From a virus, in the IMG/VR virus record IMGVR_UViG_3300008108_000243, positions 14,958 through 62,860 of that record: DNA of 47,903 nucleotides, one strand, 5' to 3'. A program made the position numbers and the translations under genes. The notes beneath the pieces were generated by a model. It was not told the origin of the DNA. It was given only the letters and a program-made list of their open reading frames with translations, and did not search any database. Below, one piece after another: positions 7,787 to 33,553 of the stretch (the first letter of the stretch is position 1; every line of letters begins with the position of its first letter).

Positions 7787-7816
7787 ACCGTAACGAACAC
7801 GCAGGACAGATACAAA
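7787..7816 (-). promoter_or_regulatory. array promoter (proximal) of MoxR-VWA operon
   Basis: TTTGTATCTGTCCTG with -10 TACGGT at positions 25-30. First of two tandem copies. Confidence 0.75.
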
Positions 7817-7854
7817 ATTGCTCTGACTCGCTCGCCCGTCTTGGCTTGAGAAGG

Positions 7855-7884
7855 ACACTAACCAACACGCAGGACAGATACCAA
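7855..7884 (-). promoter_or_regulatory. array promoter (distal) of MoxR-VWA operon
   Basis: TTGGTATCTGTCCTG with -10 TAGTGT, 68 bases upstream of the proximal copy. Confidence 0.75.
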
Positions 7885-7973
7885 GGTTTTTTAAGGGCCG
7901 TGTTAGGCCGACCTAACATCGAAGGCCGGGGCTATGAGGCCGGCAGGGGCGCGAGCTGGAGCCCCGGGGTTGA

Positions 7974-8156
7974 TTAGTTACAACCGCAACAGTCGGAACA
8001 GAAAACTACTTCGCCGTGTTCCGGACAACTAGCACGACGCGCTTCACAAATAATGCAATTTTCTCGAGATTCGGCCGCCGATGCTGCGCGGGCAGCCTTC
8101 TTTTCTCCGCGATTTTTTCCGACTTTATAGACGACGTATGCGCCGAAGAGTCCCAT
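7974..8156 (-). CDS. small protein with C-terminal cysteine cluster
   Basis: 60 residues. A short glycine/valine-rich N-terminus (MGLFGAYVVYKVGKNRG) is followed by a basic-Ala segment and then CIIC, C..H, FCSDCCGC, which probably binds one zinc. The ATG shares a base with the preceding stop (TAATG), making it the second gene of a two-gene unit. Function unknown; a nucleic-acid or protein-binding zinc ribbon is possible. Confidence 0.6.
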   Translation of the reverse strand: MGLFGAYVVYKVGKNRGEKKAARAASAAESRENCIICEARRASCPEHGEVVFCSDCCGCN

Positions 8157-8665
8157 TAGATTCCTGCTTCTCGGTCTGCTTTCGCGTCGCGTACTTCCCA
8201 CAGCCCTTTTTTTATCTTGCGAAAAGTTGGACTTTCTTGCAGATATTTAAGTGTCGTCTGGTACGAGAACCCAGATTGCTCAGCAAGTTGCTCAGTAGTG
8301 AACTGCTCAAAATGGTGCTGGGTTGACCACTTCAGGAACGCGTCCCATTTATCTGCGCGCTTCTCTACGCGCACCTCTTCCGCCACCGAAGTTTCTTCAT
8401 CAAAACTCACACCACAATAAACTGGCGCGACTTCAGTAATGATTGATTCGGGTATGCCGTATGAAATCAGTTGGCGAACTGGGTTTCCTTTCCCAGCGTC
8501 GCGATTCCAAACATAGAGCACATGCAGTGCACGGGTGTAATCGCTGATTTTTTGCGACACTTCTCGTGGAACGCTGAACTTATCTCCGTATTCGGCGACA
8601 GCCTCGTCCCACATCTTCTTATGTATTGAATCCACATGAGATTCACTGATTGATTTTTTGAGCAT
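8156..8665 (-). CDS. hypothetical protein with C-terminal helix-turn-helix
   Basis: 169 residues. The C-terminal region (FTTEQLAEQSGFSYQTTLKYLQESPTFRKIKKGLWEVR) reads as a winged helix-turn-helix, which suggests DNA binding; the N-terminal 100 residues are unassigned. The start at 8665 is preceded by AAGGAGG with 5 bases of spacing, better than the upstream ATG at 8686. A copy of the GGTGGCGGAAG motif falls inside the coding sequence. Confidence 0.6.
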   Translation of the reverse strand: MLKKSISESHVDSIHKKMWDEAVAEYGDKFSVPREVSQKISDYTRALHVLYVWNRDAGKGNPVRQLISYGIPESIITEVAPVYCGVSFDEETSVAEEVRVEKRADKWDAFLKWSTQHHFEQFTTEQLAEQSGFSYQTTLKYLQESPTFRKIKKGLWEVRDAKADREAGI

Positions 8666-8685
8666 TATGCCCTCCTTTGAATTCA

Positions 8686-8715
8686 AGGTTACTCAACGCG
8701 CAGGACAGATACAAA
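8686..8715 (-). promoter_or_regulatory. array promoter of the 8665 gene
   Basis: TTTGTATCTGTCCTG, -10 TAACCT at offset 25-30. A GACGGTGGTGGAAAG copy (8721-8737) lies just upstream. Confidence 0.75.
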
Positions 8716-8720
8716 GAATG

Positions 8721-8737
8721 CTTTCCACCACCGTCAT
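8721..8737 (-). repeat. GACGGTGGYGGAAAG motif directly upstream of promoter
   Basis: Reads ATGACGGTGGTGGAAAG on the minus strand, ending 5 bases from the promoter motif. Confidence 0.6.
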
Positions 8738-10108: not shown

Positions 10109-10138
10109 ATTTTAGCCAAGGCACAGGTCAGATACCAA
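10109..10138 (-). promoter_or_regulatory. array promoter of the 10071 operon
   Basis: TTGGTATCTGACCTG, -10 TAAAAT. Leader contains CTACTACTAC before AAGGAG. Confidence 0.75.
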
Positions 10139-10140
10139 AA

Positions 10141-11113: not shown

Positions 11114-11143
11114 ATGGTATCGGGCGCACAGGTCAGATACCAA
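11114..11143 (-). promoter_or_regulatory. array promoter of the Api92-like gene
   Basis: TTGGTATCTGACCTG, -10 TACCAT; leader ACCTACTACTAC. Confidence 0.75.
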
Positions 11144-11675: not shown

Positions 11676-11705
11676 AGCGTACACATGGCACAGGTCAGAT
11701 ACCAA
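11676..11705 (-). promoter_or_regulatory. array promoter of the 11646 gene
   Basis: TTGGTATCTGACCTG, -10 TACGCT; leader GTACCTACTACT then AAGGAG. Confidence 0.75.
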
Positions 11706-12986: not shown

Positions 12987-13016
12987 ACTTTACTTGACAC
13001 GCAGGACAGATACCAA
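12987..13016 (-). promoter_or_regulatory. array promoter of the 12956 operon
   Basis: TTGGTATCTGTCCTG, -10 TAAAGT; leader ACCTACTAC. Confidence 0.75.
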
Positions 13017-13549: not shown

Positions 13550-13579
13550 ACATTAGCCATGACGCAGGACAGATACCAA
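13550..13579 (-). promoter_or_regulatory. array promoter of the 13511 gene
   Basis: TTGGTATCTGTCCTG, -10 TAATGT; leader ACCTACTACT. Confidence 0.75.
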
Positions 13580-14172: not shown

Positions 14173-14202
14173 AGATTAGGGGACACGCAGGACAGATACC
14201 AA
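14173..14202 (-). promoter_or_regulatory. array promoter of the 14136 gene
   Basis: TTGGTATCTGTCCTG, -10 TAATCT. Confidence 0.75.
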
Positions 14203-14777: not shown

Positions 14778-14807
14778 AACGTACAGACCACGCAGGGCAG
14801 ATACCAA
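14778..14807 (-). promoter_or_regulatory. array promoter, leaderless class
   Basis: TTGGTATCTGCCCTG, -10 TACGTT, ATG 6 bases further on. Confidence 0.75.
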
Positions 14808-15482: not shown

Positions 15483-15512
15483 ACATTATCGGACACACAG
15501 GACAGATACCAA
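15483..15512 (-). promoter_or_regulatory. array promoter of the 15442 gene
   Basis: TTGGTATCTGTCCTG, -10 TAATGT; leader GTACCTACTAC. Confidence 0.75.
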
Positions 15513-16117: not shown

Positions 16118-16147
16118 AGACTACGGTACGCACAGGACAGATACCAA
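16118..16147 (-). promoter_or_regulatory. array promoter of the 16078 gene
   Basis: TTGGTATCTGTCCTG, -10 TAGTCT; leader has AACTACTACAC. Confidence 0.75.
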
Positions 16148-16863: not shown

Positions 16864-16893
16864 AATCTATCGCCTGCGCAGGACAGATACAAA
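16864..16893 (-). promoter_or_regulatory. array promoter of the DUF3846 gene
   Basis: TTTGTATCTGTCCTG, -10 TAGATT; leader CAACTACTACAC. Confidence 0.75.
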
Positions 16894-17537: not shown

Positions 17538-17567
17538 AGCGTATCCATCACACAGGTCAGATACAAA
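17538..17567 (-). promoter_or_regulatory. array promoter, leaderless class
   Basis: TTTGTATCTGACCTG, -10 TACGCT, ATG 7 bases on. Confidence 0.75.
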
Positions 17568-17951: not shown

Positions 17952-17981
17952 AGCGTATAGGCCGCACAGGACAGGTACAAA
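17952..17981 (-). promoter_or_regulatory. array promoter, leaderless class
   Basis: TTTGTACCTGTCCTG, -10 TACGCT, ATG 7 bases on. Confidence 0.75.
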
Positions 17982-18266: not shown

Positions 18267-18296
18267 ATCGTACAGAACGCACAGGTCAGATACCAA
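18267..18296 (-). promoter_or_regulatory. array promoter, leaderless class
   Basis: TTGGTATCTGACCTG, -10 TACGAT, ATG 7 bases on. Confidence 0.75.
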
Positions 18297-23321: not shown

Positions 23322-23349
23322 ATTTTCCCTTCGCTTTTCCATACAGATA

Positions 23350-23379
23350 ATCGTATCCGTCACACAGGACGGATACAAA
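23350..23379 (-). promoter_or_regulatory. array promoter of the LysM-like gene
   Basis: TTTGTATCCGTCCTG, -10 TACGAT; an ATG lies 7 bases on and a second one with a ribosome site 24 bases later. Confidence 0.7.
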
Positions 23380-23381
23380 AC

Positions 23382-23474
23382 TTACTTTTTTCGAAGTACA
23401 GAGCGTACGTAGGCGAACACAAGCCCCGCAACGAAACCAATCAACATTCCTTGGTAGTAAGCAATAATGCGCAT
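23382..23474 (-). CDS. 30-residue membrane peptide
   Basis: MRIIAYYQGMLIGFVAGLVFAYVRSVLRKK: one hydrophobic helix with a basic C-terminal anchor, as in small membrane or toxin-like peptides. It lies 38 bases after the preceding stop and ends just before the next promoter. The ribosome site is weak. The composition is the main support. Confidence 0.5.
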   Translation of the reverse strand: MRIIAYYQGMLIGFVAGLVFAYVRSVLRKK

Positions 23475-23512
23475 AATCACAAGATACCAGCCTCGGCCTA
23501 TTTCCGTTCGGA

Positions 23513-24067
23513 CTACTCGCAGTACGAAATATTCCAGTCCACGACTGTCCCGAAGGCCTTGTACGGTTGGAACTGTGCTCGCTGTGAGTCGGACATTTCT
23601 GCGAGTGGCGTGAACTCTGCCCGTGTGAAACGAACCGACTGAAAGCCTTTCGCGTTGCGGTGGCCATTGCGAACTGGAATCGTCACCTCGCGCTCGGGTG
23701 TGAGTACCCCGTATCCCGCGCGACCCATCTCCATACGCGACCAAACTTGCGTGTACGAAGTGAGCGGTGAGTATGAGCAATCGCCGTTCGCGTGTTCCTT
23801 GTAGCCCGCGACCCATTGCCTGTGCTCGCTACGCGCAACCCATACGAAACGCTTCTCGCGCTTACTCCACACGCTCTCCTCGTACTGGAATACGAACAGG
23901 CCAGTCGTGTTTTCGTCGTAGGCCGTGTTAGCCCACACCTCAACTTCGTCAAGCCAAGCGGAATCGTGCTCGCGTCGTGTAGGGCAGTCCGCGTACCACG
24001 GAAGGCCACTCGGGTTCGGGTTGGGTGTACGCGTCGGCATCTCGCCTCGCATCAGGGAATGTGTCAT
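23513..24067 (-). CDS. hypothetical protein, leaderless
   Basis: 184 residues. Opens MTHSLMRGEMPTRTPNPNPSGLPWYADCPTRREHDSAW, followed by beta segments (TGLFVFQYEESVWSKREKRFVWVARSEH) and, near the end, QPYKAFGTVVDWNISYCE. TAATCT ends 7 bases before the ATG at 24067. Two further in-frame methionines are within ten residues. Function unknown. Confidence 0.65.
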   Translation of the reverse strand: MTHSLMRGEMPTRTPNPNPSGLPWYADCPTRREHDSAWLDEVEVWANTAYDENTTGLFVFQYEESVWSKREKRFVWVARSEHRQWVAGYKEHANGDCSYSPLTSYTQVWSRMEMGRAGYGVLTPEREVTIPVRNGHRNAKGFQSVRFTRAEFTPLAEMSDSQRAQFQPYKAFGTVVDWNISYCE

Positions 24068-24074
24068 ACAAACA

Positions 24075-24104
24075 AGATTACAGAGAACACAGGACAGAAA
24101 CAAA
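24075..24104 (-). promoter_or_regulatory. array promoter, leaderless class
   Basis: TTTGTTTCTGTCCTG, -10 TAATCT, ATG 7 bases on. Confidence 0.75.
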
Positions 24105-24134
24105 GGCCGCGCTGTCGCGCGAAGAGGCCGGGGC

Positions 24135-24329
24135 TTAGAACAGACTGTCTTGCTTGGGGGCCGTAGTGCAGAAACTATGTTTGTATTTCCATAGTTCATT
24201 CTCAACAGACACAACTGTCTTGCCACTACTTTTCAGCCACACTTCAGCAAGCCTCATTGACGTACTTGCGCTTGGGTGTATTTCGTTATTACAGATACAA
24301 CACGTGTATAGAGGTGGCATTGATGACAT
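24135..24329 (-). CDS. small cysteine-containing protein
   Basis: 64 residues: MSSMPPLYTCCICNNEIHP then a helical region and HSFCTTAPKQDSLF. CC-I-C with a later H..C may bind a metal. It begins 13 bases after the preceding gene and is the last of a three-gene leaderless unit. Function unknown. Confidence 0.5.
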   Translation of the reverse strand: MSSMPPLYTCCICNNEIHPSASTSMRLAEVWLKSSGKTVVSVENELWKYKHSFCTTAPKQDSLF

Positions 24330-24341
24330 ACTCGAATCGTA

Positions 24342-24581
24342 TCAGCCTGTAAAGTCAGTTCCGTAATCGTCTTTAGATGGATTGTAGAAGTCGTCGTGAG
24401 TGCGCTCAATGTCAGTCCGACGCAGTGGCACTATCCAAAAGTATCCACGAGTTTGTTCGGGTTGTTTGTCTATCCAAGCTTGAGCCCCGGCACCTTTCTC
24501 AAACGGACCATAGAAGCGGGTAGCACCCATTGGTTGAGAGAGCGAGACAACACACGCCCCTATGTCGCCCAGTTCTACCAC
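24342..24581 (-). CDS. hypothetical protein
   Basis: 79 residues: MVELGDIGACVVSLSQPMGATRFYGPFEKGAGAQAWIDKQPEQTRGYFWIVPLRRTD. The central FYGPFEKGAGAQAWIDKQ is the common 'FGPF....A..W' layout of small phage proteins of unknown role. It starts with GTG and overlaps the preceding gene by 7 bases. Confidence 0.6.
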   Translation of the reverse strand: MVELGDIGACVVSLSQPMGATRFYGPFEKGAGAQAWIDKQPEQTRGYFWIVPLRRTDIERTHDDFYNPSKDDYGTDFTG

Positions 24582-24733
24582 AGCGACATTGACGCATCTA
24601 CCATCTCGTAGAAGTGAGCGTCACAGATGGTTGTGTGAGTTCCGTTCACTCGGCGTACTTCATTGTTGCCACCACACTCAACGCCGTGAGCGTGAGTGAA
24701 CTGGCAAGTTTCGGTGTTCGTGGTGTTCTCCAT
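24575..24733 (-). CDS. small Cys/His protein, leaderless
   Basis: 52 residues: MENTTNTETCQFTHAHGVECGGNNEVRRVNG, then TICDAHFYEMVDA. The C-x3-H-x-H-x3-EC and C-x2-H residues make a probable zinc site. TACTCT ends 6 bases before the ATG. First gene of a three-gene unit. Confidence 0.6.
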   Translation of the reverse strand: MENTTNTETCQFTHAHGVECGGNNEVRRVNGTHTTICDAHFYEMVDASMSLW

Positions 24734-24739
24734 AAGGTA

Positions 24740-24769
24740 AGAGTACAGGTCACGCAAGTCAGATACCAA
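24740..24769 (-). promoter_or_regulatory. array promoter, leaderless class
   Basis: TTGGTATCTGACTTG, -10 TACTCT, ATG 6 bases on. Confidence 0.75.
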
Positions 24770-24777
24770 CTTGCTTA

Positions 24778-25119
24778 TTAGTACCACTCACTCCATTCGT
24801 CTTCCTCTTCGTCTTCATCTTGCTCTTCACCTGCGCCCTGCGGAATCAGCGTGGTGAATCCTTCGTTCGGGTCTTCGTTGTTTGTCTCAACTGCCGAGAT
24901 GAATCGCAAGCCACACGACTCGTGCCACCAAGCGTGAAGTTTCGCCAACATCTCTTCAGGCGTTCCCGTGAAGATGTCAGGTGCGTAGTTCTCCCTGAAC
25001 CAACGCTCTTGACCTGCGTCCATCGCAAGGTAAATCTTGTGGCACGTGTCCCAAGCGATAAGGCGAGCGTCTTTGACTGCCACCTCAACATTGTTCCAGT
25101 ATTTCTCCATTGTGTCCAT
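24778..25119 (-). CDS. conserved phage-type hypothetical protein
   Basis: 113 residues. DARLIAWDTCHKIYLAMDAGQERWFRENY...TPEEMLAKLHAWWHESCGLRFISAVETNNEDPNEGFTTLIPQG reads like a conserved phage protein met in many actinophages; the C-terminus is a run of Glu and Asp. The ATG at 25119 follows GGAGGAG; an in-frame ATG at 25134 sits at the leaderless position, so two starts may be used. Function unknown. Confidence 0.65.
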   Translation of the reverse strand: MDTMEKYWNNVEVAVKDARLIAWDTCHKIYLAMDAGQERWFRENYAPDIFTGTPEEMLAKLHAWWHESCGLRFISAVETNNEDPNEGFTTLIPQGAGEEQDEDEEEDEWSEWY

Positions 25120-25141
25120 TTTGTTCTCCTCCATATCTAAG

Positions 25142-25171
25142 AGGTTACTTGGCGCACAGGTCAGATACAAA
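25142..25171 (-). promoter_or_regulatory. array promoter of the 25119 gene
   Basis: TTTGTATCTGACCTG, -10 TAACCT. Confidence 0.75.
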
Positions 25172-25282
25172 GACCCGTGCCGGGGCTTATGGGTTACTAT
25201 TTATGGGTGGCTGACGAAAAGAAAAAGAAAAAAGACAAACCAGCAAAGGTCAAGCGCAAAGAGCGTAGACCGAGTTGCTGTC

Positions 25283-25498
25283 CTATTCGTTAGACCAGCG
25301 AGCCTCTACCCATTCGTGAAGTTTCGGCGGGCAATTGTCTCTATGAAAAGGGTCAAGCATTGTTCCGTTCAGTGCTCTCGCAATAGACGGCTTCACTTCA
25401 TCTAAATAGTTGTAATAAATCTGCCCGTATCTCATTGTTTCGTCGTGGCGAAGTTCGTACTTCAGCGCAACATCAGCAAGAAACTCTAGGTAATTCAT
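25283..25498 (-). CDS. hypothetical protein
   Basis: 71 residues: MNYLEFLADVALKYELRHDETMRYGQIYYNYLDEVKPSIARALNGTMLDPFHRDNCPPKLHEWVEARW. The pattern (E.RYGQ..FN.L......A....GT..DPF..D........) is familiar from many actinophage genomes as a conserved protein of unknown function. Overlaps the WhiB gene by 4 bases and ends the five-gene operon. Downstream DNA is a long T/C tract on the minus strand, a likely transcript end. Confidence 0.7.
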   Translation of the reverse strand: MNYLEFLADVALKYELRHDETMRYGQIYYNYLDEVKPSIARALNGTMLDPFHRDNCPPKLHEWVEARWSNE

Positions 25499-25776
25499 AC
25501 CGCAACTTTATCTCGCTCACCACGAAGTAAGTACGAAGGCAATACGGCGTATCCAGCCATATGACGTTCTCTCTCCGTCTCTCCGCCCCACACTCCGTAT
25601 TGTTCTTTATTCTTGCGTGCTATATCACGACACTGAATTGCTACTGGGCAAGTGCTACAAACTTTCTTGGCAAGTGCTTCACGCTTGTCTCGCCGTTCAG
25701 GTCGTTCGGCACTCTTCCCGTAAAAGATATAAGCCTTGCCGTGACAAGGTCGTGGTGTATCAAAGACGATGCTCAT
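25495..25776 (-). CDS. WhiB-family iron-sulfur transcription factor
   Basis: 93 residues with the four WhiB cysteines C11, C40, C43 and C49 (C-x28-C-x2-C-x5-C) and the turn Y-G-V-W-G-G near 60-65, then a basic tail (GERDKVAV). WhiB proteins bind a 4Fe-4S cluster and modulate the main sigma factor. They are limited to actinobacteria and their phages; phage WhiB of mycobacteriophage TM4 blocks host cell division and superinfection. Overlaps its neighbours by 4 bases on both sides. A natural candidate for acting on the TANNNT promoters of this genome. Confidence 0.9.
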   Translation of the reverse strand: MSIVFDTPRPCHGKAYIFYGKSAERPERRDKREALAKKVCSTCPVAIQCRDIARKNKEQYGVWGGETERERHMAGYAVLPSYLLRGERDKVAV

Positions 25777-26141
25777 AGTGAGTACTCTACTAACGGCATA
25801 ACAATAATCGGTGTTTGTTCACCAACCCACGCACCGACAACATTGAAGTCCACATACTCCATTGCTTCTTCATATTCCATTCCGTCACGCTCCATACAAA
25901 CATTTATCAGTTTGTCGTAAGAATAGACAGCGAGTATTGGTTCGTTTATTCGTTGAGAGAAACCGATAAAGGCTTCATCAAACCCGTCCATCAGCAATGC
26001 GCTTTCACCCATTTCTTGTAATGCTTCATCTATTTGCGAGCGTGAAGGTTTTGTAGACATTTCTGTCCAACCATTCTTGTCGCCTATTTCTTTCCAATGT
26101 TCGTAGGTGTTACCAACGAATATGTCTTTCGCTTCGCCCAT
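25773..26141 (-). CDS. hypothetical protein
   Basis: 122 residues: MGEAKDIFVGNTYEHWKEIGDKNGW...SRSQIDEALQEMGESALLMDGFDEAFIGFSQRINEPILAVYSYDKLINVCMERDGMEYEEAMEYVDFNVVGAWVGEQTPIIV. The second half, with YD...I......GM..EEA.E....N..GA..GE.TP, is a well-known phage hypothetical family. It shares one base with the preceding stop (TAATG). Function unknown. Confidence 0.7.
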   Translation of the reverse strand: MGEAKDIFVGNTYEHWKEIGDKNGWTEMSTKPSRSQIDEALQEMGESALLMDGFDEAFIGFSQRINEPILAVYSYDKLINVCMERDGMEYEEAMEYVDFNVVGAWVGEQTPIIVMPLVEYSL

Positions 26142-26323
26142 TATGCCCTCTCTTGCGTAGTACTGATGAAGTAGTCCACGATAGCCTCTATTTCGCCACA
26201 AGCGGAACATATTTCAGTTTCGTTGTCACGTCGTGAGAGAGCCCCGGGGTAAGCCCCTGGCATTTCATTGTTTGGAATAAACCCATTGCAATTTGGGCAG
26301 ATGTGGTCAATGCTCTTTTTCAT
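26141..26323 (-). CDS. zinc-ribbon protein
   Basis: 60 residues: ICPNCNGFIPNN at the start and ICSACGEIEAIVDYF in the second half form two CxxC knuckles, as in small zinc ribbons encoded by many actinophages. The middle (PGAYPGALSRRDN) matches the same group. It overlaps its upstream neighbour by 4 bases. Function unknown. Confidence 0.7.
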   Translation of the reverse strand: MKKSIDHICPNCNGFIPNNEMPGAYPGALSRRDNETEICSACGEIEAIVDYFISTTQERA

Positions 26324-26577
26324 TTGTCCTCGCAGTAGTAGAAGCGAATATCTCTGTAGAAGTCTTGAGAGATGTTGGTGATGTCATACACAGCGTCACA
26401 CCTTGCGCACCAGTAATGCGCCCGTGTCCACTCTGATGCGACTGGCTCACACTCTGTCCATTTTCCATTTACGTTTTTACACGGATAGAAACCGTCGTAA
26501 TGCGGTGCGTTGCCACACGAACATTCCAACCAGTCCTCGCTAGCGAGTATCGCCGTGCTTCGTTCTTGTGTTTTCAT
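26320..26577 (-). CDS. cysteine-rich protein, leaderless
   Basis: 85 residues. Cysteines come as ECSCGN, PCKN, ECEP, WCARCDAVYDI and YYCED; CSC and CARC may share a zinc. TACTGT ends 7 bases before the ATG and there is no ribosome site. Leads the WhiB operon of five coupled genes. Function unknown. Confidence 0.65.
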   Translation of the reverse strand: MKTQERSTAILASEDWLECSCGNAPHYDGFYPCKNVNGKWTECEPVASEWTRAHYWCARCDAVYDITNISQDFYRDIRFYYCEDK

Positions 26578-26584
26578 ACCCACG

Positions 26585-26614
26585 ACAGTACAGATAACGC
26601 AGGTCAGATACAAC
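26585..26614 (-). promoter_or_regulatory. array promoter of the WhiB operon, leaderless class
   Basis: TTGTATCTGACCTG core, -10 TACTGT, ATG 7 bases on. Confidence 0.75.
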
Positions 26615-26644
26615 GCTACGCCGAGCGGGGCTCTTGTACGGGCT

Positions 26645-26674
26645 TTAGTATCTGTCCTGTGCCCCCTGTATCGT
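26645..26674 (+). promoter_or_regulatory. array promoter on the plus strand
   Basis: GTATCTGTCCTGTG core, -10 TATCGT. Faces the candidate RNA unit; back-to-back with the WhiB operon promoter. Confidence 0.7.
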
Positions 26675-26681
26675 TTGATGT

Positions 26682-26900
26682 GTGGCAGGGAAGCCTGTCG
26701 CCTCGGCTCTCAGACAGTTGGAGAAACGAGACATACCAGCAAGCCTCTCTAACGCTAAGGCTCTGTCGGGATGGTGTACTAGTCACCTAGCCCGTCATCC
26801 GTCCGCCTCTTACGAAGCAACCGCTACAGGTAGTCTCGCCAACGGGCAAGGCCAGCCCAGTCTGGGAGTTGGGGCGAGAGGTTTCTCTGTTTTTTTATTT
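26682..26900 (+). ncRNA. candidate non-coding RNA or leaderless small-ORF transcript
   Basis: An array promoter at 26645-26674 points here and a T-run with a short GAGA/TCTC hairpin ends the stretch at about 26897, giving a unit near 215 bases. It holds several possible hairpins (AGCCT/AGGCT, GGTG/CACC, GGATG/CATCC, CCCAG/CTGGG) and no clear ribosome site. A GTG 7 bases after the -10 box opens a 36-residue frame of ordinary composition, so a leaderless peptide is also possible. No known RNA family recognised. Confidence 0.45.
26876..26897 (+). terminator. weak hairpin with strong T-run
   Basis: GAGA/TCTC around GGTT followed shortly by eight T; a CCCAG/CTGGG hairpin lies just before. Confidence 0.45.
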
Positions 26901-26912
26901 CGCGAGCCCCGG

Positions 26913-27077
26913 CTACCCGAGACGCATTGCGCCGAGTGACTGGTTTGTTTCACCCAGTGAGTTCTTGGTAGGGGTGGAGACATCAAGTTGGATACGTTGG
27001 AGTATCACTTCGAGTTCATCCAGTTTCTTATTCATTGCGGTTACTTTGTTGAGAATATCCACGATGTGCTGTTCCAT
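26913..27077 (-). CDS. small coiled-coil protein, leaderless
   Basis: 54 residues: MEQHIVDILNKVTAMNKKLDELEVILQRIQLDVSTP, a coiled coil with regular heptads. TAGGGT ends 7 bases before the ATG. It is divergent from the helicase gene, with 29 bases between the two starts, so the promoters overlap. Function unknown. Confidence 0.55.
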   Translation of the reverse strand: MEQHIVDILNKVTAMNKKLDELEVILQRIQLDVSTPTKNSLGETNQSLGAMRLG

Positions 27078-27106
27078 TCCATAGACCCTAGCAGTATTAT
27101 CTACCC

Positions 27107-29026
27107 GTGCGCCTATTTCTTGACCACGACTTACTGGCACTGGACTTCCCCTATGACGCCGACCAAGTTGCTGAAATCAAGGCAGTACCCGGGGCTAAGT
27201 GGGACAAGGTGGACAAGTTATGGAAAGTGCCTATTAGTTCCATAGATGAAGCCCGTGGTTTCGCACAGAAACATAAGTTTCAGATATCTGATGAAGTTCT
27301 GCGGTTTACTATCCCGGGAAGGAAAGCAAAGCGTGGGGCATATCTCAAAGGTGACTGGGTATTCATACAAATCCCGTATGACAAAGTAGTAATCAACGCC
27401 GTGAAGCGGATACCAGGGATAACTTGGGATAAAGGTGAAGTGGCGTGGAGAGCACCCGTAACCTCGGCACAAGACACTATTGACTGGGCTAACTCATTCG
27501 CCGTATCAGTAGATGAGACAGTATTCCGTGTGGCAGATGAGACAAAGGCAAAGTTAGAGCGATTACAACAAGCCTCACGCTCAACAGATGCGGAGATAGA
27601 AGTGCCGGGATTACAAGGAACGCTATTGCCTTATCAAAGAGCAGGCGTGGAGTACGCCACCCGTGCGAAGCGAACGTTCATAGCAGACGAGATGGGTTTG
27701 GGAAAAACATTACAAGCGATAGCAACACTGGAGTATTCCTCGCAGACAGATGAGGTGTATCCAGCAGTAGTCGTATGCCCACCAACTCTCGCACTCAACT
27801 GGAAAGCAGAGTGGAACAGATGGTTGCCTCACAGACGAGTTTCCGTTGTAAGTAATCGCAAAGAGTTTCCTGAAAGTGGAACTTATGATGTCGTGGTAGT
27901 CGGTTACTCAAACATTCAGCATTGGGAAAAGCAACTAACTGGGCATAACTCATACGTATTTGATGAAAGTCATTACACAAAGACACCAACGGCGCAACGA
28001 ACTAAGTCGGCTATAAAGATGGCAAAGAGCGCACCCAAACACGGCATTGTGTTGTGTCTTACTGGAACACCCGTAACCAACAGACCAGCAGAGTACGCAA
28101 GTCAGTTAGACATAATCGGAAAACTCAAAGAGTTTGGTGGCTTGTGGGGTTTCTATCGGCGTTACTGTAACGCATTCCAAGACAGGTTTGGTCAGTGGAA
28201 TATCAGTGGAAACTCACACCTTGACGAACTCAATGACAGACTTCGTGGTACTTGCTACATACGCCGTACCAAGTCACAAGTGCTATCCGAACTGCCACCC
28301 GTAGTACATAACCCAGTTCTCGTGGAAGGAACAGAGGCGGGGCTCAAGGAGTACGTGAAGGCAGAGCGAGACATCATCAAGTACATAACGGACAGAGCCC
28401 GTGAAATCGCATTGGAACTCGGAGAAAGCCCGTACTCGGCAGCGGTGGTGGCAAGAATAAAGGCAGAAAGTAACGAACACCTAGTCCGACTATCAGTTCT
28501 TAGACGACTATCAGCGAAAGCGAAAATGCCGTTGGTAGAGGAGTGGGTAAACGAGCGCATAAATGACGGGAAAAAGGTGGTTATCGCTGCGCACCACAGA
28601 GACGTTGTAGATGAACTCGCAAGAAAGTTCGGAAATCTACGGATACAAGGCGATATGAAAGTCGCCGACATTGAGGAACAAAAGCATAAGTTTCAGACGC
28701 TACCCGTAGAGGAAGCACCCGTAATCGTTCTAAGTATTCAGGCAGCCAAGACTGGACACACGCTTACCGCAGCGCAAGACATTGTATTTGTGGAGTTACC
28801 GTGGACACCCGCAGACCTTGACCAAACTTATTCACGACTTCACCGCATTGGACAGCAAGGAAGCGTGACGGCGACTTATCTACTGATGGAAGGAACCATT
28901 GACGAGGAAATCTATTCGCTTATTGAGAGAAAGCGGAAGGTTGTCAATGCGTCAGTAGAAGGTGGAGAGTTCGTTCAGTCGTCAGCGTCGCAGTTGGTAC
29001 TGAACTTCATAGACCGACACCGCTAA
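27107..29026 (+). CDS. SNF2-family helicase with two N-terminal HARP-like repeats
   Basis: 639 residues. Residues ~13-50 and ~87-128 are two related repeats (FPYDADQVAEIKAVPGAKWD..LWKVP; IPYDKVVINAVKRIPGITWD...WRAP) like the HARP domains of SMARCAL1-type annealing helicases. The motor has D-E-M-G-L-G-K-T (194-201), a DESH box (near 289), LCLTGTPVTNRP, and the C-terminal RLHRIGQ motif. The family uses ATP to rewind or remodel DNA at forks. TATTAT ends 6 bases before the GTG start, so the message is probably leaderless. On the plus strand amid minus genes. Confidence 0.85.
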   Translation: MRLFLDHDLLALDFPYDADQVAEIKAVPGAKWDKVDKLWKVPISSIDEARGFAQKHKFQISDEVLRFTIPGRKAKRGAYLKGDWVFIQIPYDKVVINAVKRIPGITWDKGEVAWRAPVTSAQDTIDWANSFAVSVDETVFRVADETKAKLERLQQASRSTDAEIEVPGLQGTLLPYQRAGVEYATRAKRTFIADEMGLGKTLQAIATLEYSSQTDEVYPAVVVCPPTLALNWKAEWNRWLPHRRVSVVSNRKEFPESGTYDVVVVGYSNIQHWEKQLTGHNSYVFDESHYTKTPTAQRTKSAIKMAKSAPKHGIVLCLTGTPVTNRPAEYASQLDIIGKLKEFGGLWGFYRRYCNAFQDRFGQWNISGNSHLDELNDRLRGTCYIRRTKSQVLSELPPVVHNPVLVEGTEAGLKEYVKAERDIIKYITDRAREIALELGESPYSAAVVARIKAESNEHLVRLSVLRRLSAKAKMPLVEEWVNERINDGKKVVIAAHHRDVVDELARKFGNLRIQGDMKVADIEEQKHKFQTLPVEEAPVIVLSIQAAKTGHTLTAAQDIVFVELPWTPADLDQTYSRLHRIGQQGSVTATYLLMEGTIDEEIYSLIERKRKVVNASVEGGEFVQSSASQLVLNFIDRHR

Positions 29027-29057
29027 CTGCCAGCTCGAGCCCCGCTCGCCCCCGCAG

Positions 29058-29087
29058 TTAGTTTCTGTCCTGCGTGCTTATTAGGCT
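29058..29087 (+). promoter_or_regulatory. array promoter on the plus strand
   Basis: GTTTCTGTCCTGCG core, -10 TAGGCT, followed by a TTACG/CGTAA leader hairpin. Confidence 0.7.
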
Positions 29088-29131
29088 TACGTTGCCGTAA
29101 GGCAAACGAGCCCAAGGAAGGGGGTGAACAA

Positions 29132-29353
29132 GTGAAAAGAGAAATCGTGTGGCGTCTCACCGAAACGCAGAAGCAACTCATTCTGCGTGCGGTACTCCAC
29201 TGCCCTTGCGAAATCGGCGAGGGCGCAACCGAGCACGAGGAACACCACGCTCTGCTTCGCAAGAGCGAGGAAGAACTCGCAAAACTCGGGTGGGGTGGCG
29301 AGGGGTTGTGGCATTTTCTCAACCACAACACCAAGCGCCTCGCAAGGCGTTAG
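29132..29353 (+). CDS. small His/Cys-containing protein
   Basis: 73 residues: MKREIVWRLTETQKQLILRAVLHCPCEIGEGATEHEEHHALLRKSEEELAKLGWGGEGLWHFLNHNTKR. C-P-C with EHEEHH could bind a metal. The GTG start follows AAGGAAGGGGGTGAACAA, the extended ribosome site of the array genes. The only clearly protein-coding plus-strand gene that uses the array promoter. Confidence 0.6.
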   Translation: MKREIVWRLTETQKQLILRAVLHCPCEIGEGATEHEEHHALLRKSEEELAKLGWGGEGLWHFLNHNTKRLARR

Positions 29354-29431
29354 TGCGTAGGGGCAGGGGCAGGCAACCCTTGTCCCTCGCTCGCCCGTGT
29401 GCCGGGGCTTACTTGGCCTTGGGCTCGGGGG

Positions 29432-29797
29432 CTACACCCATAATCTCATCTGGTTCATTTCTGCCATTGCGTCTGTCTCACGGGCTTTGCGTATTGCTTC
29501 TTTGTCGTAAACGCCAAACTTCTTGAACAATATGTCATCAATGTCATTGTTCTCAAGGATTATGTCGGTAATCCAACCAGCCTGCTTGTCAATGCTCATC
29601 AAAAGTTCGCACATACCTTCGTAGCCAAACTCGGTGAATACTCGGTTCACCAAAAGTGAACAAAAGTGAGAGCGATACAGTACTTCTGCGTCAGCGCTCT
29701 TGTTCATAAACTCGCTCAACCAAACGGCAAGTTCTTCACGGGTCGGCTCACCATCAAACGAACTGTCGTCAGGGTCAAAATCAGGTTCATTATCCAT
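29432..29797 (-). CDS. acidic helical hypothetical protein
   Basis: 121 residues, N-terminal acidic stretch (MDNEPDFDPDDSSFDGEPTREELAVWL) then helices (NRVFTEFGYEGMCELLMSIDKQAGWITDIILENNDIDDILFKKFGVYDKEAIRKARE). No clear promoter; it may be read from upstream of the DUF932 gene. Function unknown. Confidence 0.6.
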   Translation of the reverse strand: MDNEPDFDPDDSSFDGEPTREELAVWLSEFMNKSADAEVLYRSHFCSLLVNRVFTEFGYEGMCELLMSIDKQAGWITDIILENNDIDDILFKKFGVYDKEAIRKARETDAMAEMNQMRLWV

Positions 29798-29852
29798 TTA
29801 GCCAGCCTTACTCGCCGCGGGGCTTACAGCTCAATGGTATCGCTAATACTTG

Positions 29853-30878
29853 TCAAGCCAGTGACAGGATTATCTCTTGCGCTGTGATTTTCTTTTGTGT
29901 CACCCACGAGTTATTGCTCATTGACGCGAGTGCTTTTTCGTCCGCTTTTGCGTCTCGGTAGTGGTCAAGGTACTCAACTATTGCGTTGTAAGCACTCCAC
30001 CCGTTGTACCCGTAGCCACCTGCGTTCTTTTCATTGTCATACACACCACGAACGAGTGCGACAACTCCGTCACGATTTCGTTTCTGTCTTTCGGTATCTG
30101 TTGCTTTCGCTGGGAATACTCCGTCAAGTATCTTCGTGAGTTGTGTGCTTGCCTGCGGAACGCTAATCGTCAATAGTTTCTCGGCGGTCTTTTGGAACTG
30201 TGTAGCCCACGCTGTTGAGATTTCTAATACTTTTTGTGCTTCCTCAATGGCGTGTTCAGCGTTACGAGTATGTCGTGCTGTGAACACCCGTGGTGCTTGT
30301 CCGATACCTGCGATTACCGTGTTCTTACACACCGCACGAATAGAAGTGTTAGCGAACGTAATCGGGGTCTTTCCGTCGTGTCCGTTACGAACGAGTAAGT
30401 AGCGTTCTATTTTGTCGTTTATTCCCGTCGGGTCAATGACTAGCCCACCCAAGTCAAGTGAACTAAAGAACTCACGCCCACCGTCTAGCACTCCGCAAGT
30501 GTCCACTACTGCGTCACCCTTGCTTGCGCCGACAATGGCGAGTGCGTAGTCCAAGCACTCACGGTTCTGCTGTACGACATAGCGTGTGCCGACTGTTGCT
30601 AGTCCATCAAACGAGCCATCAGGGTTCACCCGTACCGTTGCCCGACTATCCTCAATGACTATTGACGAGCCATCAGGGTTCGTAATCAGGTTTCCTTCCG
30701 TGTCCACGACTGCGACTTTCGTGGTGACGACATCATAATCAGCCTGTGCCGTTGCCAACATTTCCTCGGCTGTCTGTAGTCCCTTCATAGCCACGCCAAG
30801 TCTGTGCCACGGGATTTCTCTCTCGGCATACGCCATTTTCGCTACACCCTTAGCGTCTATCTCTAGCCCGTGTGCCAT
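29853..30878 (-). CDS. DUF932 (phage/plasmid-like) protein
   Basis: 341 residues. Starts MAHGLEIDAKGVAKMAYAEREIPWHRLGVAMKGLQTAEEMLATA, then RYVVQQNRECLDYALAIVG, GREFFSSLDLGG, YLLVRNGHDGKTPITFANTSIRAVCKNT, and a helical C-terminus. This is the DUF932 family (phage/plasmid-like protein TIGR03299), widespread on phages and plasmids; its role is unknown, possibly DNA maintenance. The ribosome site is weak. Confidence 0.85.
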   Translation of the reverse strand: MAHGLEIDAKGVAKMAYAEREIPWHRLGVAMKGLQTAEEMLATAQADYDVVTTKVAVVDTEGNLITNPDGSSIVIEDSRATVRVNPDGSFDGLATVGTRYVVQQNRECLDYALAIVGASKGDAVVDTCGVLDGGREFFSSLDLGGLVIDPTGINDKIERYLLVRNGHDGKTPITFANTSIRAVCKNTVIAGIGQAPRVFTARHTRNAEHAIEEAQKVLEISTAWATQFQKTAEKLLTISVPQASTQLTKILDGVFPAKATDTERQKRNRDGVVALVRGVYDNEKNAGGYGYNGWSAYNAIVEYLDHYRDAKADEKALASMSNNSWVTQKKITAQEIILSLA

Positions 30879-30966
30879 TTCGTGTGTCTTTCTCTATGTC
30901 TCAGTTAGATTTATCTGAAACATACCACACGCTTACTGCGTTACAGGGTAGGTGTAGCCCCGGCTT

Positions 30967-31110
30967 CTACCGTCTGAACTCCGCCCACGGGTCACGCCCT
31001 GCGTTCACTTCCTCTTGTTCCCAGTCAAGTAGGTCGTTCGCCCACTTCTCGCACTCGTCGCAAGCGCACTTGGGTTCGTGCCATTTGGGTTGCTGTGGTC
31101 GTGGTCGCAT
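30967..31110 (-). CDS. small protein with CxCxxC
   Basis: 47 residues: MRPRPQQPKWHEPKCACDECEKWANDLLDWEQEEVNAGRDPWAEFRR. The HEPKCACDEC segment is a likely metal-binding knuckle. The ATG shares a base with the previous stop (TAATG). Function unknown. Confidence 0.55.
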   Translation of the reverse strand: MRPRPQQPKWHEPKCACDECEKWANDLLDWEQEEVNAGRDPWAEFRR

Positions 31111-31358
31111 TACTCGTCGTCCTCGTCGTCGTCGTATATTCCGAACAACTCTGTCCAACACTTCGGGTGAGTTCCTGAGATAAGTTGCTCTCGCAAGTCT
31201 GCCGAGAGAAACGGGAATGCGTCTTGTATGTACGCACCTGCGTTACGCAACTCAATACCGCGCAAGCCTTCCTCGCGTGGCATAGTGAGTTCTCCAAACT
31301 CGCCACAGTGGTAGCAACGCTTCGTCTCAATGGTGATGGTGTCGGTGGTGGTGTTCAT
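31110..31358 (-). CDS. small CxxC protein
   Basis: 82 residues. KRCYHCGEFGELTMPREEGLRGI...GAYIQDAFPFLSADLREQLISGTHPKCWTELFG reads as a well-known actinophage hypothetical (CYHCG....E...........QDAFP.L....RE.L..G.H..CW...FG). The ATG at 31358 follows GGGAG. It has an acidic tail of Asp and Glu. Function unknown. Confidence 0.7.
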   Translation of the reverse strand: MNTTTDTITIETKRCYHCGEFGELTMPREEGLRGIELRNAGAYIQDAFPFLSADLREQLISGTHPKCWTELFGIYDDDEDDE

Positions 31359-31379
31359 AATCATCTCCCTTCGTATCCA

Positions 31380-31409
31380 ATAGTAGTGACAACACAGGAC
31401 AGATACTAA
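31380..31409 (-). promoter_or_regulatory. array promoter of the 31358 operon
   Basis: GTATCTGTCCTGTG core, -10 TACTAT. Confidence 0.75.
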
Positions 31410-31413
31410 GCGA

Positions 31414-31665
31414 TTACTCGCCTAGCACTATCCTCTGTGTCGGGTGAATGAGTGTGCCGTACTTCTTGACCATCTCGTAGTCGGCTTGCTGTAAGTTGCC
31501 ACGACAATACTTACGAACGATACCGCTGATGGTGTCGCCATACTCAACCTTGTGCGATACCTTCTCACAGGTGTATGGTGCGTGTATTGACTGCCACGCT
31601 GAATAGGTAACTGTGGCGAATGCGACTACTGCGATTACTACTTGGGCTATCTGCTTTGTTCTCAT
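31414..31665 (-). CDS. membrane-anchored LysM-like protein, leaderless
   Basis: 83 residues. N-terminal helix (TKQIAQVVIAVVAFATVTYSAWQ), then CEKVSHKVEYGDTISGIVRKYCRGNLQQADYEMVKKYGTLIHPTQRIVLGE, a LysM domain (V..GDTIS.I....C.GN......). Paralogous in design to the 23010 protein. A good promoter, TTGACT-17 bases-TACCGT, has the ATG 7 bases after the -10 box, so it is leaderless without the array motif. Confidence 0.7.
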   Translation of the reverse strand: MRTKQIAQVVIAVVAFATVTYSAWQSIHAPYTCEKVSHKVEYGDTISGIVRKYCRGNLQQADYEMVKKYGTLIHPTQRIVLGE

Positions 31666-31700
31666 ATCATCTACGGTAGGGAATACTGAAACACAAGTCA
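31642..31700 (-). promoter_or_regulatory. sigma-A-like promoter of the LysM gene
   Basis: TTGACT, 17-base spacer, TACCGT, then ATG after 7 bases. It lacks the array motif. Confidence 0.65.
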
Positions 31701-31844
31701 AGGATTTGTGAGCCTTATGGGATAAGGGTTATACCCGTAGCACTACCCGTAGGCACTTGCGACACTCCACCTATAAGCGCACTGTGTCGGTGGCTATGTC
31801 GGTGCGTAGTGCGCCTGCCTTGTGTACCGGGGCTTCGAGCTGGC

Positions 31845-31913
31845 CTACAGTTTGTCTTTGACTAGGTAAGTGAATGCGAGCAACATTGCGCTCAATATGA
31901 CCAACTGGTTCAC
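31845..31913 (-). CDS. 22-residue membrane peptide coupled to the secreted protein
   Basis: MNQLVILSAMLLAFTYLVKDKL: one hydrophobic helix and a short basic tail. The GTG start overlaps the stop of the upstream gene as GTGA, so ribosomes could re-initiate. Too short to judge by homology; the overlap and composition are the only support. Confidence 0.4.
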   Translation of the reverse strand: MNQLVILSAMLLAFTYLVKDKL

Positions 31914-32689
31914 TTCTTGACTGTCGCCTTCTTGCTCTTGACGACTGGCTTCTTGCTCTTGACGACTGGCTTCTTGACGAATGGCTTGCGGGTCGTCGTT
32001 ACTGATGGGGTGAATACAGTGCTCTCAACTCCTGCTACTGCGCTAGCGACTAGCGGTGTCGTAGTCGTTGTCGTAGTCGGTGTCGGTGCTTCGTATGCCA
32101 CTGGCGTCGGCTCATCTACTGGTTCGCTCGCTGGTTCGTTCATTGGTGCTGGTGCTTGCGTCGTCGTCGTCACTGCGACAGTGGTAGTCGTAATCACTGC
32201 GACAGTCGTCGTCGTGGTCGGTGTGACAGTGGTGGTCGTCGGTGCTACTCCATCTATTGTGCCGTCACACGATACGGCACAGTCTCCGTTCGTCACGACT
32301 GGGGTGGTGCTTGCGCCTATCAACTGATACACGACACTACGTGCGAGTGCGACATCTATTCCACTTCGCCACAGTGCGAGTGTAAAGTTCGGGCGATAAC
32401 CATTGCCACCTGAACCATTACCAATACCTACGCCGACATACTCACACACGCCGAACCAACCGTGCGCCTGTGCTATCGCCTTGCCTAGTGCGGTGTGTCC
32501 ACCATTGGAATAAGTCACTAGGCGTTCGTATGCTGTCGTGCCTACCTCGGTGTCAATGATGGTGAACACTGTAGGCACTGCTGATGATGGTGCTTGCGTC
32601 GGCTCTAGGCATTCATCTGCTCTCGCTTCACTGACTGGGGTGAACGACAGTGCGACTGCGACTGCGAGTGTGGTGGTTAGTAACTTCAC
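31910..32689 (-). CDS. secreted protein with Thr-rich linker and basic C-terminal repeats
   Basis: 259 residues. Signal peptide MKLLTTTLAVAVALSFTPVSEARA, then a domain of about 110 residues with TYSNGGHTALGKAIAQAHGWFGVCEYVGVGIGNGSGGN and four cysteines. Residues ~150-215 are a TTTT/Val/Pro linker; the end is KKPVVKSKK repeated. Thr-rich linkers are typical of secreted actinobacterial proteins; the Lys-rich tail suggests binding to an acidic surface. The start is a GTG behind AAGGAG with a CTACTAC leader. The role is unknown. Confidence 0.7.
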   Translation of the reverse strand: MKLLTTTLAVAVALSFTPVSEARADECLEPTQAPSSAVPTVFTIIDTEVGTTAYERLVTYSNGGHTALGKAIAQAHGWFGVCEYVGVGIGNGSGGNGYRPNFTLALWRSGIDVALARSVVYQLIGASTTPVVTNGDCAVSCDGTIDGVAPTTTTVTPTTTTTVAVITTTTVAVTTTTQAPAPMNEPASEPVDEPTPVAYEAPTPTTTTTTTPLVASAVAGVESTVFTPSVTTTRKPFVKKPVVKSKKPVVKSKKATVKK

Positions 32690-32743
32690 TATGTCTCCTT
32701 GTAGTAGGGATACCCGTAGGCTACCCGTGGCACTTGCGACTTG

Positions 32744-33124
32744 CTACTTCGTGTTCTCGTCGTCGGCTTCTTGCCAACCTTGACCGTCGTCGGTTGCGAC
32801 AAGGGTGGTGAGTGAACCGTCGTCGTTCGTGCGGAATATCCAACACCAACGACAACACGGCTTATCACCTTTGCGACTTGGGTGCTGTCCTTTACCTAGT
32901 CGTTCACCTAGTCGGGGTAGGGCTGTGAGTAGGGTGACGATACAGTCGTGACACAACTTCCACGGGTGGTCTTCATCTTCGTCTGCGAGACTGTCACTGA
33001 AACCGCTGTAGTAACCAAACTGATTTGCGTCTAACAACCAACCGTCGTCTATCAGTTCGTTATGAATGTGCGCTTCATACGACTTCTCACAAGCGTCGCA
33101 TACGACAATGTGACCATCTCTCAC
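32744..33124 (-). CDS. zinc-cluster hypothetical protein
   Basis: 126 residues. CDACEKSYEAHIHNELIDDGW, LCHDCIVTLL and PCCRWCWIF give three cysteine pairs. The opening 'DGHIVCDACE....H.H.....GW' is typical of small phage proteins with a zinc ribbon. The tail is Asp-rich. It overlaps the upstream gene by 4 bases. Function unknown. Confidence 0.65.
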   Translation of the reverse strand: MRDGHIVVCDACEKSYEAHIHNELIDDGWLLDANQFGYYSGFSDSLADEDEDHPWKLCHDCIVTLLTALPRLGERLGKGQHPSRKGDKPCCRWCWIFRTNDDGSLTTLVATDDGQGWQEADDENTK

Positions 33125-33516
33125 ACGACACCTGCGAATACTTGTGGTGTGAAACTGCTAACCAATGTCGGTGACTGCCAACCTTCTATGACTGTCTCAA
33201 GTGTGCGTCGCACCTGTCGTGCGTCTGCCTCTCTACCTTGTCGCACCATCTTGCCTGTCTTGGTGTTAGGTGCTGTCTCTGCGTCGGTGAGTAGGCACTG
33301 CTCAAGTTCGTATAGTGACAGGGTGAGTAGCAACACCTCGTCGCTAGTCAAGTATGCGCCTTTCGTCTTGACCTTACGAAACAACTTCACGACACGCTCT
33401 GACGCTGATGGGTCGGTGTCTGCGAGGTCGTCTGTGTATCGGTAGTCAAGTGTGCCTAGTACCTCAAGTGCTTCACGCTCTGCGTCGGTGAGTAGGTAGT
33501 GAGTAAGTGTCTCCAT
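33121..33516 (-). CDS. hypothetical protein, leaderless
   Basis: 131 residues, helical: METLTHYLLTDAEREALEVLGTLDYRYTDDLADTDPSASERVVKLFRKVKTKGAYLTSDEVLLLTLSLYELEQ. TATCCT ends 7 bases before the ATG. First gene of a two-gene unit; a G-run cluster lies upstream of its promoter. Function unknown. Confidence 0.6.
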   Translation of the reverse strand: METLTHYLLTDAEREALEVLGTLDYRYTDDLADTDPSASERVVKLFRKVKTKGAYLTSDEVLLLTLSLYELEQCLLTDAETAPNTKTGKMVRQGREADARQVRRTLETVIEGWQSPTLVSSFTPQVFAGVV

Positions 33517-33523
33517 ACCTCAC

Positions 33524-33553
33524 AGGATAGTCACGACACTGGACAGATACCAA
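33524..33553 (-). promoter_or_regulatory. array promoter, leaderless class
   Basis: TTGGTATCTGTCCAG (T14 changed to A), -10 TATCCT, ATG 7 bases on. Confidence 0.7.

Follow-up and report, generated by a model that had tools for sequence, protein, structure and literature searches.

A repeated promoter-like element private to one species of uncultured phage and the concerted change of its counterparts in close relatives

The repeated element and the genes behind it

Here, we analysed a stretch of viral DNA of 47,903 bases (hereafter the window), which covers positions 14958-62860 of an IMG/VR record of 62,860 bases (IMGVR_UViG_3300008108_000243) and along which a 30-base promoter-like element recurs. 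The element has the form TTNGTATCTGNCCTGYG-N7-TANNNT, in which TANNNT corresponds to the sigma-A -10 box of actinobacteria. A preliminary description of the sequence had counted 35 copies, 33 on the minus strand (7787-33553) and two on the plus strand (26645 and 29058), and this count was confirmed by a mismatch search with a shuffle control: the pattern TTGGTATCTGNCCTGYG, with at most three mismatches, was matched 36 times in the window, compared to a mean of 0.55 and a maximum of 4 in 100 dinucleotide shuffles. The 36th match (4256+, two mismatches) is without a -10 box. As the -10 box was absent from the search pattern, its occurrence at one and the same place in 35/36 matches is separate support, and the observation of a repeated promoter-like element is confirmed.

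Base counts across the 35 aligned copies located TANNNT at positions 25-30, as had been stated before, with T25, A26 and T30 present in 35/35 each. Element positions 2, 4, 5, 10 and 15 are likewise invariant (35/35), while the preferred base is found in 34/35 copies at positions 1, 7, 8, 9, 12, 14 and 17, in 33/35 at position 13 and in 32/35 at position 6. Fourteen of the first 17 positions are hence near-fixed (32-35 of 35), which is a contact-like pattern. The other three behave differently: position 3 is G in 15, T in 15 and A in 5 copies, position 16 is exclusively C (16) or T (19), and position 11 is restricted. The 7-base gap, described earlier as variable, turned out to be mostly loose, with a bias at position 18 (C or T in 33/35) and position 19 (G in 23/35). 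The element starts 24 bp 5' of the TA, is asymmetric and 17-18 bp long, and spans about -37 to -20, where a -35 box would sit; of the TTG at the -35 place, the window species leaves the third base free. The canonical arrangement TTGACA-17-TANNNT shows no enrichment in the window (14 one-mismatch matches compared to 10.7 expected).

Copies of the element were assigned as promoter-like sites based on the pattern search, the base counts and a scan for downstream starts, in which an open reading frame (ORF) of at least 40 codons had to begin within 140 nt and the rule for Shine-Dalgarno words was permissive. All 35 copies precede an ORF, and none is left without a gene behind it. A start codon lies 7-8 nt after T30 in 13 cases (12 ATG and one GTG) and follows a Shine-Dalgarno-like word in the other 22. 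At a distance of 7-8 nt, transcription would be expected to begin with the first base of the codon, as it does for leaderless mRNAs of actinobacteria; ATG exactly 8 nt after T30 was found in 9/35 copies, compared to about 0.5 expected from the ATG frequency. The median spacing between copies is 585.5 bp, which, together with the start behind each copy, fits the earlier proposal that each of them may drive its own small transcription unit.

Two copies in tandem (7787-7816 and 7855-7884, both minus) stand 5' of the gene for a MoxR-like ATPase, and by eye two own-type copies precede MoxR in 10/33 relatives as well (one of the 33 has no upstream sequence). Leaderless-type starts follow the minus-strand copies at 14778-14807, 17538-17567, 17952-17981, 18267-18296, 18565-18594, 21474-21503 (three mismatches), 23350-23379, 24075-24104, 24740-24769, 25142-25171, 26585-26614 and 33524-33553. 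The remaining copies on this strand lie at 8686-8715, 10109-10138, 11114-11143, 11676-11705, 12987-13016, 13550-13579, 14173-14202, 15483-15512, 16118-16147, 16864-16893, 19066-19095, 19483-19512, 19835-19864, 20306-20335, 21143-21172, 21872-21901, 22229-22258, 22795-22824 (three mismatches) and 31380-31409. On the plus strand, the copy at 26645-26674 is followed by a GTG 8 nt past the -10 box and, further downstream, by the gene of an SNF2-type helicase (27107-29026), and the second copy is located at 29058-29087. Judged from these features, the 35 copies look like one class of phage promoters, in which a host-type -10 box is combined with an upstream element that replaces the -35 box.

Lineage-private elements and the switch between two relatives

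The window derives from one of a family of uncultured large phages, whose records reach 172 kb and which share a DUF932 protein, an SNF2-type helicase and a MoxR-type ATPase accompanied by a VWA protein. The same-species record G001 (90,420 bases; 99.2-99.9% identity in the seven longest matches) extends the window. No close cultured phage was found among 50,697 records, neither by megablast nor with the HA-domain protein described below; in the same records, the MoxR protein gave two weak matches, both in Microbacterium phages, and the SNF2-type helicase gave 1197 distant ones (28-36% identity among the matches listed). WhiB-like proteins suggest that the hosts are actinobacterial.

Scanning viral contigs for GTATCTGNCCTGYGN7TA yielded 69 stretches, of which five belong to G001 and one is a 4.4-kb fragment of the same species with three copies; each of the other 63 holds a single match, which is about chance level by a rough estimate. 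A weight matrix found 35 sites in the window as well as 27 across two loci of G001, but none in 151 loci of relatives and none in reversed sequence. The window element is private to its species. What the relatives have in its place, as repeated words and motif discovery revealed, is a different element preceding TANNNT in the equivalent stretch of genes, i.e. the same layout with another sequence. Such elements are TTTGGAAATTTGGTATC in G005 (31 copies), TTTTGTAAATCTGATATCgg in G008 (30 copies), aAtTTGTCGGtt.gGGGTGGG in G032 (44 copies), TTgGGAAGtCTGTcC in G015 (23 copies), aacTTGTAaGcCgTcCGTAGG in G035 (24 copies), aAcTTGTTAgTCGtcCGTAACg in G081 (20 copies) and aACTTGTtGGGTtGGGTAAG in G012 (37 copies), with zero copies in the reversed-sequence control in every case. 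Leaderless-type starts, counted by a slightly different rule, were found behind 13/34 copies in G001 and 38/44 in G032. Altogether, a matrix was obtained for 26/41 loci, two of which were dropped as not promoter-like; the 24 loci kept represent about 20 different elements by eye, several of them related.

How such elements change became visible in the pair G005 and G008, which share 142 reciprocal best protein pairs (201 genes called in G005) with a median identity of 92%. By their flanking sequence, 25/31 G005 promoters could be aligned with a counterpart in G008; a single pair relies on 36 bases and uses a G008 promoter for the second time. Counted from the T of the TA, the two phages have the same base in 4%, 12% and 0% of the 25 pairs at columns -21, -16 and -13, whereas agreement is 88-100% in the remaining columns from -24 to -10 and 48-72% in the spacer (-8 to -1). 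Three motif columns have changed in nearly all orthologous promoters while free positions drifted. We prefer selection by a reader over gene conversion as the cause, because the latter would have carried the spacer along. Other close relatives are mixed: of ten copies in G009, six carry TTTGGTAT, two TCTGATAT, one TCTGGTAT and one another sequence, and in locus L174 four of five copies carry TTTGGTAT and one TCTGATAT. Old, mixed and new states in close relatives are what look like stages of the switch. In the mainly open-access, preprint-free literature covered, we found no report of lineage-private elements with a visible staged switch for this phage family.

Further repeats accompany the elements. 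A second lineage-specific short repeat, e.g. AGTAGATAAGT or ACTTACCTACACC, was seen in G015, G016, G018, G019, G025-G031, G038 and G040 (examples are loci L199 and L204). Each of these phages has 15-107 copies in the 10-42 kb available (0-3 in reversed sequence, except for 24 in G018/G019), and in several loci the repeat lies directly upstream of the MoxR promoter. The word TCCACCACCGTC / GACGGTGGTGGA is present in 9-14 copies per locus in L166, L180, L222, L224 and L244, some of them within the beginning of a gene for a small membrane protein and others in the spaces that precede genes.

Regarding the records themselves, the left end of the record that holds the window (L009 1-9142, outside the window) has no match above 77% in G001 while the rest is more than 99% identical. 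Encoded there are a capsid protein, whose gene is 74-77% similar to its G001 counterpart, and a protein of 865 aa that contains a sigma-factor-like helix-turn-helix (HTH), and the mismatch points to a recombinant or a chimeric assembly. The window encodes tRNA-Lys (ttt, 35517-35590) and tRNA-Met (cat, 36545-36618). In G005, a 250-aa gene (75335-76087) that carries an Endonuclease_7 domain and weakly matches Arm-binding, perhaps a homing endonuclease, is shared with G009 and has no match in G008 and G001.

Candidate readers of the element

Sigma70 region 2 (PF04542) was absent from ten records, some of them fragments, in a search whose control rang in 10/14, which speaks against a sigma factor coded by the phages themselves. 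For other proteins, the switch from G005 (TTTGGAAATTTGGTAT) to G008 (TTTGTAAATCTGATAT) served as a rule: a reader must have a changed DNA-touching segment between the two. The preliminary description had named WhiB, XRE, MerR and ribbon-helix-helix proteins as candidates. As specific readers, the first three are not supported, their DNA-facing parts being unchanged or nearly so: among the three WhiB-like proteins, C-termini are identical or show a single R to K exchange, the XRE protein has a single class-consistent change (K16D) outside an identical recognition helix, and the HTH of the MerR-like protein is identical. Of the ribbon-helix-helix proteins, another of which is encoded at window 71-238, the comparison covered the one at G005 114810; it shows two changes only (N57K and E99D), so that the proposal is not borne out for this protein. 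On the other side stand the distance correlations of a WhiB-like and a ribbon-helix-helix protein encoded outside the window, given below, which three other families share.

The rule also removed two winged-HTH proteins (G005 118945 and 106040) with the same recognition segments (apart from T92S in 118945) and a small basic protein (window 45228-45437) with the same central basic stretch. Another winged-HTH protein (window 35079-35459) does have a changed helix and wing when G005 is compared with G008 (88%), yet it was rejected because G009, with mostly G005-type copies, has a version that is only 39% identical; it also has no match in G015. A residue scan of 89 families gave no clear DNA-binding hit.

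We applied partial Mantel tests to ten families in 24 loci, with the distances of MoxR and VWA as controls. A MazG-like, an unnamed, a WhiB-like, the MoxR and a ribbon-helix-helix protein reached p 0.003-0.007 at r 0.28-0.43, the WhiB-like (r 0.39, p 0.003) and the ribbon-helix-helix protein (r 0.28, p 0.007) being encoded outside the window; the other five families stayed at or below r 0.13. Since MoxR is itself part of the control, we regard these signals as neighbourhood effects. WhiB-like and ribbon-helix-helix proteins may nevertheless act as partners. One species carries three different WhiB-like proteins (window 25495-25776; L009 14229-14591; G001 57483-57917), and one such protein has a C-terminus that is nearly constant across the family.

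An HA-domain protein with a sigma-region-4-like HTH (122 aa, window 3741-4109, plus strand), a putative cofactor, could be the reader itself, placing its HTH on the 5' half of the element and a predicted beta-hairpin on the variable 3' half. The protein has one match in 40/40 records reached through MoxR and in 27/39 other records (DUF932 had led to 11 of the 12 records without a match). Its predicted structure (predicted local distance difference test, pLDDT, 89) has the hairpin at residues 31-38, within a variable stretch, hairpin windows gave a partial r of 0.25-0.39, and in PHROGs the HTH finds weak matches among late transcriptional activators (E 0.0003 and 0.004). Yet the recognition helix is almost invariant in 43 sequences although the elements are unrelated, and is the same in G005 and G008; loci L166 and L227 have the same hairpin (HVENVDGTD) and different elements; and the whole protein shows a partial r of 0.08 (p 0.19), while MoxR windows reach 0.56. 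The hairpin as reader is not supported by the partial Mantel tests, and a structure search returned no PDB match at E ≤0.001. We consider it quite unlikely that the HA protein reads the element. In cellular genomes, the protein was found on ten contigs, nearly full length on five, all five in metagenome bins with mixed labels; these are perhaps stray phage contigs. The HA gene, too, looks leaderless by eye: in the window and several relatives, TANNNT stands seven bases 5' of its ATG, and its promoter is without the lineage element, so that it may be switched on separately.

Behind the HA gene, in an A/T-rich gap, lies the extra element-like site without a -10 box (4256-4272, plus strand). In four of seven loci of clade 1 (clades 1, 2 and 3 being labels assigned by eye), namely the window, L166, L167 and L171, such a site scored higher with the locus's own matrix than all 200 shuffles. 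Such a site would fit a phage RNA guide that sets the element, so that a change of guide alters all targets. However, the sites of L172, L174 and L176 fail the own-matrix test, and the site in L176 (G005) scores 2.3 with its own matrix compared to 20.8 with the G008 matrix; as it fits the matrix of the other phage better, the site does not dictate the promoters. In addition, no site passes downstream of HA in the seven loci tested from other clades or upstream of it in 15 loci, and G005 holds no copy without a -10 box at threshold in 160 kb. A guide of this kind is extremely unlikely. Elsewhere, copies without a -10 box number two in G032 (promoter-like by context) and one in G015 (control 1). 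The gap itself holds an A/T-rich hairpin-like array (CAAAAAA...TTTTTTG; window 4110-4331 as well as L166, L167, L171, L172, L174 and L176), one unit of which is element-like; RNA folding of the gap gave nothing convincing.

The best single candidate came from giant virion-type polyproteins of 2261-3945 aa (G005 33055-43746, G001 82927-89712, G032 55537-67374 and G015 23190-32123). ArdC and MPTase-PolyVal metallopeptidase domains occur in all four, and a prohead protease domain (S78 in G005, G032 and G015), UvrD and WYL in part of them; WYL was found only in frames of 1982-3567 aa in 3/16 records (control 7/14). The G005 polyprotein is divided by LSSG[RK]-like sequences, putative cut sites, and two of these flank a module in which sigma-region-4-like HTHs stand twice in tandem, as would suit a bipartite site. 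The HTHs read MKREEVRQAEMRHM and MSREDIRTREQKHM in G005, MTREDVRQAEMRHM and LSRETVRRREQKHM in G008, MKRQEVRQAELRHI and MTREQVRRIEQTHL in G010, and VPRQVVRQAEQRHM in G001, where a remote second copy falls below the profile's report and the module takes up residues 740-955 of the minus-strand frame 82930-89916. The recognition helices differ between G005 and G008. Sigma-region-4 hits in frames of more than 1,000 aa were obtained in 8/26 records (G001, G005, G008, G009, G010, G014, G023 and G030). We regard the module as a lead, not as proof. If it were the reader, the polyprotein, cut at the LSSG[RK]-like sites, would carry an early-gene activator in the virion, the module would enter with the DNA and read the -37/-20 element of about 30-45 promoters, and helices and sites would change together. 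This scenario is unlikely, but if true, promoter codes would split as fast as species. A C-terminal polyprotein segment (G005 42433-43494), 87% identical to G009 and 62% to G008, opposite to the genome trend, was not adopted in view of its poor model (pLDDT 53) and no match in G032, G033, G035 and G012.

A probable phage-coded activator compared with known systems

We consider it probable, at roughly 0.7, that the copies are phage promoters composed of a sigma-A -10 box and a private element, read by a phage-coded activator that co-evolves with it, whichever protein this may be. A phage-coded factor acting with host sigma-A, as the preliminary description had proposed, would probably be the reader, which fits the fixed -10 box and the phage-specific upstream element. 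Such a DNA-binding activator would bind at -37 to -20, contact sigma region 4 and act positively, holding the host RNA polymerase with sigma-A and replacing the reading of the -35 box by sigma region 4. A set of small, presumably early, genes would thereby be turned on. Reader and sites would co-evolve, which would make the regulon private to each lineage and the reader fast-changing.

Several observations weigh against this. Leaderless-type starts are rare in G005 (3/31), G008 (2/30) and G015 (3/23). The co-variation analysis singled out no reader, five of ten families being significant and none prominent. The genes are presumed early from their type only. As to the polyprotein module, its first helix is changed to IRREEVAQAEKRHM in G009, which has mostly G005-type copies, and the available G009 stretch is without the second HTH. 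G009 conflicts with the module in the way that led us to reject the winged-HTH protein of window 35079-35459, which lowers the probability of the module somewhat. Moreover, G032, G033, G035 and G012 have no sigma-region-4 hits in frames of more than 1,000 aa, so the module could not be the reader everywhere unless it is replaced there.

Promoter codes are usually thought to be slow-changing, since one reader serves many sites, and what seems to be a staged switch at named columns of orthologous promoters opens to direct test the old question of how a reader changes in step with dozens of sites. If the reader were found, about 20 ready-made promoter codes for actinobacteria would be at hand, some of them perhaps mutually exclusive. 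In addition, a regulon becomes readable from sequence alone in a phage family without known cultured members.

In T7 and T3, phage promoters change together with the polymerase; different here is the fixed bacterial -10 box, and PF00940 (single-subunit RNA polymerase) was found in 0/10 records with a control that was also silent. Cluster K mycobacteriophages have start-associated sequences (SAS), numerous conserved short sites that are found close to the starts of genes other than those of the structural region (PMC12699233). They lie near start codons, whereas the present element occupies -37 to -20 of a promoter. The window has no match to the SAS consensus GGGATAGGAGCCC with at most two mismatches (0.58 expected), in line with the earlier remark that the sequences differ.

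The operators and stoperators of Cluster A mycobacteriophages are asymmetric, stand mostly in one orientation relative to transcription and vary in motif with the repressor, a monomer with two DNA-binding domains (PMC6550527, PMC9283540). Many asymmetric copies, mostly one orientation and a motif differing between relatives are found here as well, which raises the question whether the element is an operator: a fast-changing phage repressor would bind between -35 and -10 and silence the promoters in the lysogen, and each lineage would be an immunity group. The number of sites would agree, as Cluster A genomes likewise hold asymmetric 13-bp sites, numbering from over twenty to about thirty per genome (PMC6550527, PMC9283540), and a TTG at the -35 place was seen by eye in many lineages. 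However, its third base is free in the window species (G 15, T 15, A 5), and while the 13-bp sites lie in promoters and short intergenic spaces, 35/36 copies here have a -10 box at a fixed distance; one fixed register in 35/35 copies seems to exceed what a repressor needs. Furthermore, the tyrosine integrase PF00589 was found in 0/12 records (control 14/14), in a search that did not extend to serine integrases, plasmid-type maintenance or an L5-type repressor. An operator is unlikely.

Mycobacteria have an activator of their own, PafBC, with the promoter consensus TTGTCRGYG-N8-TANNNT. PafBC sits between sigma-A domain 4 and the DNA and lets the housekeeping polymerase use promoters with a -26 motif (PMC11804915). 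This sigma adaptation on a -26 element with sigma-A (PMC11804915) would serve as precedent if a host transcription factor or alternative sigma factor, such as PafBC, read the element and each phage matched its own host. The PafBC consensus is not enriched in the window, however (one one-mismatch match compared to 0.72 expected), and phages with 75% median protein identity have elements as different as TTGTCGGtt.gGGGTGGG and AACTTGTAAGcCGTCCGTAGG. A host reader is very unlikely. WYL domains, with hits in 3/16 records, are found here inside giant polyproteins and not in a PafB- or PafC-like protein.

The phage-coded activator that we favour has a counterpart in the middle promoters of T4, in which the host -10 box is kept and a phage element is centred at -30, in about 58-60 copies (PMC2988021, PMC6755090). 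Here as in the MotA/AsiA system, a phage element replaces the -35 box at a near-fixed distance (T25, A26 and T30 in 35/35). It differs in that the MotA box measures 9-10 bp and tolerates changes, whereas 14 near-fixed positions extend over 17 bp in the element. MotA_activ (PF09114) was found in 0/12 records with a control that was also silent (0/14), and WhiB-like or HA/sigma-region-4-like proteins are possible substitutes in the role of AsiA. Layout, copy number, the genes behind the copies and the concerted change fit a phage-coded activator that works like the sigma appropriation of T4 or the sigma adaptation by PafBC. The principle of a host -10 box joined to a phage element is already known; what we call new, in a comparison that leaves MotA-box variation among T4 relatives aside, is that each lineage has a private element and that its switch is visible in stages.

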